A stretch of DNA of 64,000 bases from Maribacter sp. HTCC2170 (lineage in GTDB: Bacteria; Bacteroidota; Bacteroidia; Flavobacteriales; Flavobacteriaceae), in NCBI RefSeq assembly GCF_000153165.2, contig NC_014472.1, positions 1,423,501-1,487,500 of the forward strand, written 5' to 3'. This document shows positions 30,678 through 33,723 of this stretch, piece by piece. The translations under genes were made by a program, and so were the position numbers. Position 1 is the first letter of the stretch. Every line of letters begins with the position of its first letter. The notes under the pieces are model-generated. The model saw nothing but the letters and a program-made list of their open reading frames with translations. It searched no databases and was not told where the DNA came from.

Positions 30678-31889
30678 ATGCTAGAAAAGAAATCCATTGA
30701 ATACGAAAAAGCTGTCCTAATTGGTGTCATCAATAGAGAGCAAAATGAGGAAAAGGTAAATGAATACCTAGATGAGCTGGAATTTCTAACCTATACGGCG
30801 GGAGGTGAAGTCTCCAAACGCTTCGTGCAACGTGTAGAGGTTCCCAATCCCAAAACCTTAATAGGAAGTGGGAAGATGCAAGAGGTAGAACATTATGTCG
30901 AAGAAAATAAAATAGGGTCGGTCATCTTTGATGATGAACTATCCCCCGGTCAACAACGAAATATTGAAAAGCAATTGCGATGCAAAATATTGGATCGCAC
31001 AAGTTTGATTCTCGACATATTCGCCCAACGGGCGCGTACAAGCTATTCACGCACCCAAGTAGAACTTGCACAATATGAATATCTTCTACCAAGATTAACA
31101 GGTCTGTGGACTCACTTGGAGCGTCAAAAAGGGGGTATTGGTATGCGTGGTCCTGGTGAAACCGAAATTGAAACCGATAGACGTATAGTTCGGGACCGTA
31201 TTTCATTGTTAAAGAAAAAGCTTTTAAAGATTGACAAGCAAATGGAGACCCAAAGGGGCAACAGAGGGGCTATGGTACGTGTTGCACTTGTGGGGTATAC
31301 CAATGTTGGAAAATCAACCTTAATGAATGTTATCAGCAAAAGTGATGTATTCGCCGAAAACAAGCTATTTGCAACTTTGGATACAACTGTTAGAAAAGTT
31401 GTGATTGGAAATTTGCCTTTTCTATTGAGTGATACTGTTGGTTTTATCAGGAAGCTCCCTACCCAGTTGGTCGAAAGCTTTAAGAGTACATTGGACGAAG
31501 TACGTGAAGCAGACTTATTACTACATGTGGTGGATATCTCGCACCCCAATTTTGAAGAGCACATAGAATCGGTAAACAATATTTTGGCAGAAATTAAAAG
31601 TGCCGATAAAAAAACCATAATGGTCTTCAACAAGATCGATCAATATAAACATGAAACGATTGATGACGATGACCTTATTACTGAAAGAACTTCTAAGCAT
31701 TTTACAATCGAAGAATGGAAACGTACATGGATGCAAAGGATGGGCGAAAATGCCTTGTTCATTTCTGCGTTGAACAAAGAAAATCTTGATGAATTTAGAA
31801 AAAGGGTCTACAATGTAGTTCGGGACATTCATGTTACCCGTTTCCCTTACAACAACTTTTTGTATCCTGAGCATTTAGATCAATATTAG
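30678..31889 (+). CDS. hflX: GTPase HflX
   Basis: Ribosome-splitting stress GTPase of 403 residues, cytosolic. Its N-terminal HflX domain contains NPKTLIGSGKMQEVE and VIFDDELSPGQQRNIEKQL. The linker GGIGMRGPGETEIETDRRI is highly conserved in the family. The G domain (from ~200) has G1 GYTNVGKSTL, G3 DTVGFIRKLP and G4 FNKID. The C-terminal tail is short. It is divergently transcribed from the EEP gene. Its stop lies about 130 bp before the first of the three tandem sRNA-like units; no terminator is apparent right after it. Confidence 0.96.
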   Translation: MLEKKSIEYEKAVLIGVINREQNEEKVNEYLDELEFLTYTAGGEVSKRFVQRVEVPNPKTLIGSGKMQEVEHYVEENKIGSVIFDDELSPGQQRNIEKQLRCKILDRTSLILDIFAQRARTSYSRTQVELAQYEYLLPRLTGLWTHLERQKGGIGMRGPGETEIETDRRIVRDRISLLKKKLLKIDKQMETQRGNRGAMVRVALVGYTNVGKSTLMNVISKSDVFAENKLFATLDTTVRKVVIGNLPFLLSDTVGFIRKLPTQLVESFKSTLDEVREADLLLHVVDISHPNFEEHIESVNNILAEIKSADKKTIMVFNKIDQYKHETIDDDDLITERTSKHFTIEEWKRTWMQRMGENALFISALNKENLDEFRKRVYNVVRDIHVTRFPYNNFLYPEHLDQY

Positions 31890-31945
31890 AGCCATATTCT
31901 GGATAATCACAGGTAGTTCATCGAGGAAATCATACCGTTAATTTT

Positions 31946-31975
31946 TTCACCACAAATTGACCCTGCTTCACAACA
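31946..31975 (+). promoter_or_regulatory. 9-12-9 direct repeat upstream of sRNA unit 1
   Basis: TTCACCACA (31946-31954) and TTCACAACA (31967-31975), 21 bp apart start to start. This is the geometry of LytTR-type activator sites. They lie ~30-60 bp upstream of the -7-like TATCTTTA. Confidence 0.5.
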
Positions 31976-32017
31976 TTATTTAGGTAAATGTAGAGGTCTC
32001 AACGTATCTTTACATTG

Positions 32018-32175
32018 TAATTAAGTGATAGTGTTGACCCCAAATCATATCATGAACTTAATCTAAATTAAAGTATTTGTTTCCCCAAAACCTATACATA
32101 GCCTAAATAAGCTAAAACCAAATTTTACAGACCTACTTAACTAAAAAAAAGGCCCTTTCAAAAGGGCTTTTTTAT
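32018..32175 (+). ncRNA. Candidate small RNA, tandem unit 1
   Basis: No ORF of note lies in the 904-bp gap after hflX; three tandem units fill it. In this one, a -7-like TATCTTTA at 32005-32012 is followed by a predicted stem (ATTAAGT 32020-32026 with ACTTAAT 32056-32062, and GATA 32027-32030 with TATC 32048-32051). C-rich unpaired stretches TGACCCCAAA and TTCCCCAAAA and a rho-independent terminator at 32149-32175 follow. The 56 nt at 32008-32063 are identical to unit 2. The start site is estimated from the -7 box. No family is recognised. Confidence 0.6.
32149..32175 (+). terminator. Rho-independent terminator of sRNA unit 1
   Basis: GCCCTTTCAAAAGGGC hairpin (32152-32167) followed by a run of T. 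Confidence 0.85.
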
Positions 32176-32253
32176 TTTCACATACTTCGCTTAACTTCAT
32201 TTTTTTTCGGCGTAAAACAAACCGTTCATCGAAGATATCGCACCTTTAATTTT

Positions 32254-32283
32254 TTCACCACATTTTAGCCTTGCTTCACAACA
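32254..32283 (+). promoter_or_regulatory. 9-12-9 direct repeat upstream of sRNA unit 2
   Basis: TTCACCACA (32254-32262) and TTCACAACA (32275-32283), the same sequences and 21-bp period as unit 1; the 12-bp spacer differs between units. The -7-like box is TACCTTTA at 32312-32319. Confidence 0.5.
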
Positions 32284-32324
32284 TTATTTAGGTCATTTTA
32301 TGTGACCAACATACCTTTACATTG

Positions 32325-32481
32325 TAATTAAGTGATAGTGTTGACCCCAAATCATATCATGAACTTAATCAAAAAACAAAGTGTGTGTTTCCCCAAAACA
32401 AACACAAACCTATAAAAAGCTAATACCCAAAATTACAAACCTACTTTACCTAAAGGCCCTTTTGCGAAAGGGCTTTTTTTG
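32325..32481 (+). ncRNA. Candidate small RNA, tandem unit 2
   Basis: Offset 307 bp from unit 1. It repeats the whole layout: upstream direct repeats, -7-like box, a 56-nt identical block (32315-32370) with the same stem, TTCCCCAAAA, then a poorly conserved AT-rich stretch and a terminator whose loop differs (TGCGAA instead of CAAA) while its stem is kept. A reading frame MNLIKKQSVCF exists here but stops after four codons in unit 1, so the unit is not protein coding. Such pairing-preserving variation supports a functional RNA. Confidence 0.6.
32452..32481 (+). terminator. Rho-independent terminator of sRNA unit 2
   Basis: GCCCTTTTGCGAAAGGGC hairpin (32456-32473) followed by seven T. Confidence 0.85.
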
Positions 32482-32536
32482 CACTTAATCCTAAAAAACA
32501 AGCATTTTATCGGATAAATCATACATTTTAACGTAG

Positions 32537-32566
32537 TTCACCACATTTACAAGATGATTCACAACA
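32537..32566 (+). promoter_or_regulatory. 9-12-9 direct repeat upstream of sRNA unit 3
   Basis: TTCACCACA (32537-32545) and TTCACAACA (32558-32566): both 9-mers are identical to those of units 1 and 2 although the surroundings have diverged. Confidence 0.5.
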
Positions 32567-32601
32567 AAAATTTAGTGGAAGAATATAAGCCGTTTACATT
32601 C

Positions 32602-32772
32602 GTCCTGTATTTATGATTTATAACACCCAGATTAAAACATTACTTAACCAAATAAGTATTTGGATTTTTCCAAGTCTAAATGTATTAGACAAGGATTAAT
32701 TTTGACTGATTAACCCAATATTACAAATCCTACTTAACAAAAAAAGCCCTGACGAAAACGTCAGGGCTTTTA
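32602..32772 (+). ncRNA. Candidate small RNA, tandem unit 3 (divergent)
   Basis: Same architecture as units 1 and 2, but the body sequence has diverged: direct repeats at 32537, CGTTTACATT at 32591-32600 in place of the -7/start region, an internal hairpin around AGTCTAAATGTATTAGACA (32673-32690), the shared tail ACAAATCCTACTTAAC and a strong terminator. No ORF. The start is uncertain because the -7 box is weaker here. Confidence 0.45.
32741..32772. terminator. Bidirectional terminator: sRNA unit 3 and DUF3078 gene
   Basis: Perfect 9-bp stem GCCCTGACG / CGTCAGGGC (32746-32767) around AAAA, flanked by A-run on the left and T-run on the right, so it works for both strands. The DUF3078 gene stops at 32794. 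Confidence 0.85.
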
Positions 32773-32793
32773 ATGTATCTAGCAATACTATTT

Positions 32794-33723
32794 TTAGAAT
32801 GCATAATTAAGTCCAAACAGCCAATACGTTTGTAACTCATTATCAACATTGTCAAATGTAGCTCCAGTGTCAGGTGTAGGTCCGTTCAATGCATAATTAA
32901 GTGCTTCTTGTTTATTGTTTCTAAGACCAAATTCAAAACCTAAACCAATACCGTTCCATATGGTATACCCCAATGAGTTAATCCATGTCCAATTTGAAAG
33001 ATTAGATGATTTATAACTGTTGAACATCGAAAGGTTGGTCTTGAAATTAACAGCGCCAATTTTTCTAGTATAATCAGCAACAATTTTAGCACCTAAAGAA
33101 GATTCGAAGATTGCATCCTCATCACTGAATACAAAGTTGTAGTTCAAAGGGTGTATAACAATAACCAAATCAGTAATCGGAGTCCAAGTTCCACCAACAC
33201 CAAGATCCAAATATCCAGGATCATTAAAATTGCTCAGTAAAGTTGTTCTATATTCCCCTAAAGCAGAAATAGCAAATTTTTCACTGATTTTTTGACCGTA
33301 AAGTGATGTGATTGTAAATACATCTGTTGCTTCTTTGAAGCTGTCATCATCCGTGGAATCATCTTTATCATCGAATTTAACCCAGGCAACATTTACGTTA
33401 CCAGAATTTCTCCAGAAAAACTTCTCTTGATTTAGGTTGGCAAAACCGTTTACGGTAATTCCAATATTACCAGCACTTGAATTAGCCTGACCTTTCGAAT
33501 ACCAATTGCTAAAACCAGAAAGGTTAGCCCCAATAGTACCGAAGGCACCTTTTTTCCACCCGGGGAGGGCATCAATTTTTGCTTGAAGGGCATCAACCCT
33601 TCCTTGAATTGCCGCAATAGAATCTTTTTTAGGTCCTTGTAGCGCTTTAAGCTCATCTGCAGTTTGTGCATTGGTAGCTGTCAATGTTAAGATAGCGACC
33701 AAAGTAAATACTAATTTTCTCAT
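32794..33723 (-). CDS. DUF3078 exported protein
   Basis: 309 residues with a signal peptide (LVFTLVAILTLTATNAQ), then a short coiled-coil-like stretch (KKDSIAAIQGRVDALQAKIDALP), then a beta-rich domain of DUF3078 (PF11276). It contains IGANLSGFSNWYSKGQANSS, WRNSGNVNVAWVKFDD and a C-terminal WLFGLNYAF, typical of an outer-membrane beta-barrel end with a terminal Phe. The function is not known; it is probably an outer-membrane protein. It has its own promoter at 33756-33784 and shares the bidirectional terminator at 32741, so it is a single-gene unit downstream of the suf operon. Confidence 0.9.
   Translation of the reverse strand: MRKLVFTLVAILTLTATNAQTADELKALQGPKKDSIAAIQGRVDALQAKIDALPGWKKGAFGTIGANLSGFSNWYSKGQANSSAGNIGITVNGFANLNQEKFFWRNSGNVNVAWVKFDDKDDSTDDDSFKEATDVFTITSLYGQKISEKFAISALGEYRTTLLSNFNDPGYLDLGVGGTWTPITDLVIVIHPLNYNFVFSDEDAIFESSLGAKIVADYTRKIGAVNFKTNLSMFNSYKSSNLSNWTWINSLGYTIWNGIGLGFEFGLRNNKQEALNYALNGPTPDTGATFDNVDNELQTYWLFGLNYAF

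Follow-up and report, generated by a model that had tools for sequence, protein, structure and literature searches.

To our knowledge, the upstream regulators and the targets of small RNAs (sRNAs) of Bacteroidota are hardly known. In Clostridium perfringens, the LytTR-type regulator VirR acts partly via a regulatory RNA, VR-RNA; that system has one RNA and a Firmicutes host, unlike the multicopy family described here. The LhrC sRNAs of Listeria monocytogenes come in several homologous copies under one two-component system, and their redundant C-rich UCCC motifs, placed in loops and single-stranded stretches, are thought to meet Shine-Dalgarno regions (PMC4132741). The Cia-dependent sRNAs are also multicopy sRNAs under a two-component system (PMC11697453). 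FopS of Bacteroides thetaiotaomicron is described as a multicopy sRNA family of about 65 to 70 nt with a conserved 5′ part and canonical sigma promoters, and GibS as having an extra promoter motif (PMC11697453, PMC7366714); one of these reports calls the activator of GibS elusive and presents that of FopS only as a possibility (PMC11697453). The Rfp sRNAs of Flavobacterium psychrophilum are described as independent short transcripts, of which Rfp18 was tested by deletion (PMC9723704). In the LytTR Regulatory Systems, a LytTR protein is paired with a membrane inhibitor and there is autoregulation; the same report defines LytTR sites as two 9-bp direct repeats with 11 to 13 bp between them, mostly 12 bp apart and just upstream of the promoter, with letters that vary and a spacing that is kept (PMC6193735). 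Among the titles listed for the open-access literature there was no paper on the RNAs or the regulator considered below, subscription papers and preprints lying outside that scope.

Results

Three related units follow hflX

In the window, the whole 64-kb stretch of DNA that was analysed, the 904-bp interval between hflX and a DUF3078 gene (positions 31890 to 32793) contains three head-to-tail related units (Table 1). Their start-to-start distances, 308 and 281 to 289 bp, agree with an earlier note on this DNA, which had described three tandem related units of about 280 to 310 bp. The block of 56 nt that it had reported as identical in units 1 and 2 was found at both places, and the CCCC stretches that it had called unpaired sit in the predicted loops of stem-loops SL1 and SL2 in the same two units. 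The predicted RNA bodies begin with G, 5 nt past the −7 box, and a GC-rich hairpin with a T-run closes every unit (3/3), in keeping with the rho-independent terminators noted earlier. A consensus scan called terminator-like sites at two of the three hairpins, both on the minus strand, and a sigma-70 consensus scan of the sequence was uninformative (5 found versus 4.1 expected). By its minus-strand call the unit 3 terminator looks bidirectional, and it may also end the convergent DUF3078 transcript.

Table 1. Features of the hflX–DUF3078 interval and of the loci compared with it (window positions unless another sequence is named)
Feature	Position	Strand	Remarks
hflX	30678..31889	+	upstream neighbour; PF13167, PF16360, PF01926
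Palindrome-like element TTCATCGAGGAA, unit 1	31917..31928		29 bp ahead of repeats; sequence
Putative LytTR-type direct repeat, unit 1	31946..31975	+	TTCACCACA-N12-TTCACAACA, exact match
−7 box TATCTTTA, unit 1	32005..32012	+	29 bp past repeats; place kept in relatives
56-nt identical block	32008..32063 = 32315..32370	+	part of −7 box, RNA 5′ end, SL1 with loop ACCCCAAAUC
sRNA w1 (unit 1)	32017..32173	+	type A, ~157 nt, predicted
SL2 hairpin, unit 1	32073..32097	+	CCCC in loop; RNAalifold and pair counts
ACCTACTT preceding unit 1 terminator	32131..32138	+	present in many units
Intrinsic terminator, unit 1	32146..32173	+	sequence
Palindrome-like element TTCATCGAAGAT, unit 2	32225..32236		29 bp ahead of repeats; sequence
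Putative LytTR-type direct repeat, unit 2	32254..32283	+	TTCACCACA-N12-TTCACAACA, exact match
−7 box TACCTTTA, unit 2	32312..32319	+	28 bp past repeats; place kept in relatives
sRNA w2 (unit 2)	32324..32480	+	type A, ~157 nt, predicted; terminator ~32452-32480
SL2 hairpin, unit 2	32381..32405	+	CCCC in loop; compensatory changes versus unit 1
Degenerate palindrome TTTATCGGATAA, unit 3	32506..32517		4 mismatches by eye; sequence only
Putative LytTR-type direct repeat, unit 3	32537..32566	+	TTCACCACA-N12-TTCACAACA, exact match
−7 box TACATTCG, unit 3	32595..32602	+	28 bp past repeats; place kept in relatives
sRNA w3 (unit 3)	32607..32771	+	type B, ~165 nt, predicted; terminator ~32742-32771
DUF3078 gene	32794..33723	−	convergent neighbour on downstream side; PF11276
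REC-LytTR response regulator	G000:C1:3176026-3176781; L142:3524-4282		outside window; receiver domain PF00072
TPR-HisKA_2 kinase gene	L142:830-2803		downstream of REC-LytTR gene
Second-family sRNA copies	L142; L186, L187; L196-L225 except L199	− (L142)	in L142, behind regulator gene

The units share a promoter signature

The upstream direct repeats recognized earlier are real and sharper than described: each of the three units has exact 9-bp repeats with a 12-bp spacer, and the pattern has no further match with up to three mismatches elsewhere on either strand of the 64-kb window. The −7-like boxes of the earlier description are likewise present in all three units and fit TAnnTT. When the distance was left free and about 60 positions after the repeats were searched, 30 of 35 rows had the box 28 or 29 bp downstream; of the remaining five, three were picks in a register shifted by 21 bp, one was spurious (L016 u2) and one had a box that the pattern did not cover. 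A two-strand scan of 30 sequences, the window plus 29 loci (328,919 bases), for repeats with a box at 27 to 29 bp gave 37 matches, every one of them with the box at 28 or 29 bp. The 35 matches with a score of at least 15 all lie in the interval after hflX, 34 on the hflX strand and one on the opposite strand (L008), and the reversed-sequence control gave six matches, one with a score of 15. Over all loci compared, with only these two distances allowed, the gap was 28 bp in 143 and 29 bp in 9 of 152 distinct sites, which derive from related genomes and are not independent.

The 9-12-9 geometry of all three units fits the published repeat length and spacer of LytTR sites, and, as in LytTR-type sites, the repeats hold a fixed place just upstream of the core promoter. 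Their letters differ from what we take to be the textbook LytTR consensus. By geometry and by the co-occurrence described below, we regard the direct repeats as LytTR-type regulator sites, with putative binding; this character is a point beyond the earlier interpretation, which had not identified it. A palindrome-like element also lies ahead of the repeats. Its consensus, TTCATCGATGAA, occurs with up to three mismatches upstream of 57 of the 152 sites, versus 9.6 in letter shuffles, and in 43 of the 57 it starts 29 to 31 or 39 to 40 bp ahead of the repeats. This spacing suggests helical phasing and a second input, and the element is perhaps the site of a second regulator.

One stem of the RNA covaries, and unit number varies among relatives

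Eleven of the 34 extracted units, all of type A, were aligned and folded without an imposed structure; left out were L005b (a near-duplicate), L014a, L014c, L012b, five type B units, ten type C units and four divergent units. De novo, RNAalifold found SL2 and the base of the terminator, with changes on both sides, in some sequence, in 9 of 11 pairs. The earlier note had proposed a covariation test on related loci, and SL2 does covary, six of its seven pairs being changed on both sides. SL1, which varies little, was added by hand from the w1 fold, and the pair counts therefore favour it. With SL1 added, 85.3% of cells pair, versus 75.8 in shuffled alignments and at most 45.8 in slid versions; the covariation score was 0.333 versus 0.171 shuffled (0 of 500 shuffles as high), and further pair types were less striking (18 of 500 shuffles). 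Single-sequence folds of the bodies without terminators were unremarkable, with modest z-scores against shuffles (−1.15, −1.98 and −2.19).

A type A covariance model searched over 87 sources, with rough E-values, finds w3, which lies outside the model, at E 1.7e-6. It also finds other units outside its training set, at E below 0.001 in L014a, L014d, L007, L023, L004, L006, L013 and L178 and more weakly in L010 (E 0.013) and L030 (E 0.053); L011 and L016 gave no match at E 0.1, and two matches near E 0.04 to 0.09 fall outside any unit. Rfam gave no match at gathering score in the window; the earlier note knew of no named family for the units. At a lax threshold there were 18 weak matches in the interval, the best on the minus strand at the last terminator (E 0.008), and 11 in six other loci, all below gathering scores. 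Rfam holds an LhrC model, and LhrC is not among the 18 matches in the interval, so that the search gave no sign of homology to it.

The hflX loci came from the best 80 of 588 relatives, and the interval was read in 25 of them and in the window. The units read have predicted lengths of 113 to 201 nt. Zero to four scored units follow hflX in a relative: one in 11 of the 12 Muricauda/Flagellimonas/Allomuricauda loci read (none in L015), two in Arenibacter (L012), two near-identical ones in Maribacter (L005), three in Zobellia (L020, Zobellia uliginosa) and in two MAGs (L009, L033), four in L014 and none in Eudoraea (L028). From one relative to another the sequence of the body and the number of copies change, but the promoter site, the −7 box, the 5′ end of the RNA and the terminator hold their place. 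In all four other arrays that have a type B unit (w3-like, assigned by eye), it is the last one, adjoining DUF3078. The 29-letter type A 5′ end, with up to three mismatches, occurs in 6 of 80 genomes, and all six carry the regulator described next.

A REC-LytTR regulator co-occurs with the repeat sites

With up to two mismatches, the repeat occurs 23 times in the host genome (3.87 Mb, one contig), versus 6 times when reversed. Outside the window, two repeat sites lie between a gene for a REC-LytTR response regulator and a TPR-HisKA_2 kinase gene (L142). Orthologs of this regulator (E ≤ 1e-60) are found in 14 of 80 family genomes, its own included. These 14 genomes hold 109 repeat sites with up to one mismatch (1 to 14 each; one each in G056 and G085), versus 17 in the 66 genomes without the regulator (0 to 4 each), and reversed controls gave 0 to 2 per genome; repeat sites go with regulator presence at a Mann-Whitney p of 1.3e-11, uncorrected for kinship. 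Comparing the hflX locus with the regulator in 48 of the 80 genomes that supplied hflX loci, we found units in the interval in 19 of 28 genomes with the regulator and in 0 of 20 without it (Fisher 6e-7); the nine regulator genomes without a scored hflX unit are L008, L015, L024 to L029 and L077. Of 28 regulator loci from named records, 27 (all but L240) have the signature on the downstream side at no more than about 350 bp, as do 12 of 14 loci of an earlier set, where it stands behind the regulator. The co-occurrence of regulator and units may reflect the kinship of the carriers.

A LytTR pair in L107, which adjoins a 35-codon ORF and stands beside another repeat site, was rejected as the regulator, since its distribution does not match that of the repeat sites. 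Orthologs with at least 52% identity occur in 12 of 80 genomes, of which 4 are rich in repeat sites and 8 have none or one, and an ortholog is missing from 10 of the 14 genomes bearing the favoured regulator.

Several other loci bear the signature. In L153 (G082) and L154 (G102), several tandem, apparently repeat-driven short transcripts stand behind the regulator gene, pointing to amplification at the regulator locus as well. Repeat-controlled genes for secreted-like proteins in L089 and L180 share VKIG..PN.IDAAS near the N-terminus and are a possible conserved direct target. In L106 (G000:C1:3124429, minus strand), a weak repeat site with 28 bp to TAGTTTTA lies, by eye, ahead of an ECF-like sigma factor gene.

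The same signature marks a further, dispersed family of predicted sRNAs

In 18 of the 28 regulator loci, the signature would drive a member of another sRNA family that hardly varies in sequence. Its short RNA, predicted at roughly 75 to 100 nt, has the block TTTTTTCATTTTCATATAGTGTTCTCG ahead of the terminator. With up to one mismatch, its 19-letter core has 38 copies in 12 of 80 genomes. Eleven regulator genomes account for 37 of these, with 3 to 5 each; the remaining copy, in G051, has no repeats and box, in a genome without a regulator ortholog and with a single one-mismatch repeat site elsewhere. The core is absent from three regulator genomes (G056, G085 and G102). Repeats and box at exactly 28 bp (27 to 29 allowed) accompany 29 of 30 copies examined; in two of the 29 the repeats score weakly, at 12 and 13. 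The UAGUGU of the block recurs near the 5′ end of 20 of the 34 hflX units, including w1 and w2 and not w3. The reverse complement of the second family resembles a start region and has ten genome matches with up to three mismatches, versus none in the control; three of them are sRNA genes, and five of the other seven lie at apparent start codons, with secreted or lipoprotein-like genes. Because start regions share ATGAAA by composition, this antisense idea is a lead and not a result.

A model of co-activated sRNA genes and its alternatives

Our best reading of the three units, whose transcription is predicted, is that of an amplified regulatory RNA gene family, as the earlier note had suggested; the kept places of promoter, 5′ end and terminator, the covarying stem and the lack of a fixed ORF support it. 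We consider it probable that they are paralogous noncoding sRNA genes with their own activator-dependent promoters, co-activated by the REC-LytTR regulator, and that the RNAs act post-transcriptionally. The sequence itself supports the promoter geometry, the multicopy units, their conservation, the stem covariation and the co-occurrence with the regulator, and comparison among genomes points to binding of the repeats by the regulator and to activation. In such a model, the kinase would sense some signal, to judge from its TPR part and, by eye, a signal-like N-terminus. The regulator would bind the 9-12-9 repeats, about two helical turns apart, upstream of the sigma-A-type TAnnTT box and, once bound, would switch on all three units together; it would also activate its own TPR-HisKA_2 kinase gene and the second sRNA family. 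Several copies would raise the dose and allow divergence, here into two similar type A RNAs and one of type B. The RNAs would then pair with targets, probably through their conserved 5′ part and, for units 1 and 2, also through the CCCC stretches in the SL1 and SL2 loops.

The least certain step is that the RNAs act by base pairing, and we lean slightly against it. Eight segments from w1, w3 and the second family were each set against 269 start regions and against interior parts of those genes, and start regions were not preferred; for the second-family segment the loss was smaller than for its reversed control, no more than a suggestion. For w2 and the kinase start region, 3% of 40 shuffles did better in one genome, and w1 to w3 paired less strongly with the second family than shuffled sequences did on average. 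Pairing of w3 with the start region of the regulator (−28.3, 0 of 40 shuffles, z −3.4; L009c, z −2.8) was not supported across the type B RNAs, the others (L033c, L014d and L020c) giving z of −0.6, −0.5 and 0.2.

CsrB and RsmZ titrate CsrA, and the RNAs could be decoys of this sort, which we think unlikely. Their repeated CCC(C)AAA hairpin loops and the ACCUACUU stretch would then sequester an RNA-binding protein that recognizes this motif in mRNA leaders. Most type A RNAs have two or three C-rich motifs of the CCAAA type, and in w1 and w2 two such motifs fall in predicted loops, but the motif is absent from type C units and weak in unit 3, and such a protein is not known here. Although similar bits stand ahead of the start codon in some repeat-controlled mRNAs (L088, L089, L103), CCCCAAA is not enriched in 60-nt leaders, with 3 sense versus 6 antisense occurrences in 12.8 kb. 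The genome has 15 copies of ACCCCAAATC, versus 4 in the reversed control, but the units account for 2 of them and leaders for another 2, and the other 11 are in or across ORFs. On the leader and ORF counts, a decoy for a protein reading a common leader motif was rejected.

It is rather improbable that the repeat sites are bound by another LytTR protein or another kind of regulator. The host genome has 19 LytTR genes, and distribution was compared for the favoured regulator and one competitor, the L107 pair; against this alternative stand the placement of sites behind the favoured regulator and their absence or rarity where it is missing. Still less probable is a role of the units as DNA, with the repeat sites titrating the regulator and the short transcripts as by-products: the binding sites are among the best-kept parts and copy number varies, but the RNA 5′ ends, the covarying stem and the terminators are kept as well, and the second family holds about 25 RNA letters nearly unchanged.

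No reading frame of constant start and length recurs in the units

The ORF beginning MNLIKKQ, which the earlier note had called not conserved, has 13 codons common to units 1 and 2 because the DNA is identical there; it then stops in unit 1 and continues only in unit 2, where it has 27 codons. Across units, no ORF recurs with a constant start and length; the longest ones differ in position, size and sequence, and two units contain none. Most type A units give a VLTPN-like reading in the frame through ACCCCAAAUC, since the letters of the RNA are kept; this frame spans 9 to 27 codons, its start codon is not kept and it is broken in L009b. The three units are apparently noncoding, although a very short ORF may be present.

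Short repeat-controlled ORFs occur elsewhere. One of 35 codons (MEAQINHAPSPKK..; L088, G000:C1:1500705, minus strand) has a leader that resembles the sRNA units, and a homologous short ORF (MDAQMNHAPAQEE..) lies on the minus strand of L008 after 5808, preceded by the scored site. L103 holds twin short ORFs, MLYDTYGEEYL.. and, following it, MANQNPDNAAYLNF.. / MAKQNPDNAAYLNF.., and the same start recurs in L166; these ORFs, about 150 to 330 bp past the repeat site, are apparently paralogous, conserved micropeptides. That the three units are themselves short mRNAs or relics for micropeptides, with the RNA as leader and a small protein as product, is hardly credible: related leaders precede these other short ORFs, the type A model weakly matches the L088 transcript (E 0.056) and the VLTPN-like reading recurs, but neither that frame nor the longest ORFs are consistent among units, and in the window the terminator comes directly after the ACCTACTT stretch.

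Discussion

The analysis brings together a candidate sensor, a candidate regulator with its putative site, a promoter geometry and two predicted sRNA families. Our results, all from sequence, are best read as a two-component system of the LytTR type whose predicted major outputs are two multicopy sRNA families. It seems to us somewhat likelier than its opposite that a group of Flavobacteriaceae has a dedicated, self-controlled LytTR two-component system whose main outputs are the hflX-side array (0 to 4 units), the dispersed family (3 to 5 copies in eleven genomes, with a near-invariant segment like the antisense of a start-codon region) and micropeptides, with a second, helically phased palindromic input, TTCATCGATGAA; it would be a Bacteroidota counterpart, of independent origin, of regulators acting via sRNAs. 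One two-component sensor system may thus work largely through switching on sRNA families, and the promoter signature is a way to find further sRNAs by sequence alone.

The array resembles several known systems in part. Repeated GGA in hairpin loops, which is characteristic of CsrB and RsmZ, is lacking: GGA does not occur in w1 or w2, whose loops carry CCCC instead, and occurs twice in w3. The LytTR Regulatory Systems, as far as the report describes them, share the 9-bp repeats, mostly 12 bp apart and placed ahead of the promoter, and the autoregulation that is predicted here; the REC-LytTR protein with its PF00072 receiver and the HisKA_2 kinase gene downstream, in place of a pairing with a membrane inhibitor, and the predicted sRNA outputs set the present system apart from them. 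The Rfp sRNAs are likewise flavobacterial short transcripts; the comparison is by description, and the main text of that report does not contain the words LytTR or hflX (PMC9723704). FopS shares the phylum Bacteroidota, the multicopy state and the conserved 5′ part, but its RNAs are shorter and the published descriptions compared mention no LytTR repeats, a distinction by description and not by sequence. The LhrC sRNAs, as reported, are alike in being multicopy homologous sRNAs with two-component control, which is predicted here, and C-rich loop motifs; they differ in their regulator, LisR, which is not of the LytTR type, and in an unrelated host. By the tests made the units are not members of LhrC or CsrB, and in functional kind they would be like the multicopy sRNAs under two-component systems, LhrC and the Cia-dependent sRNAs.
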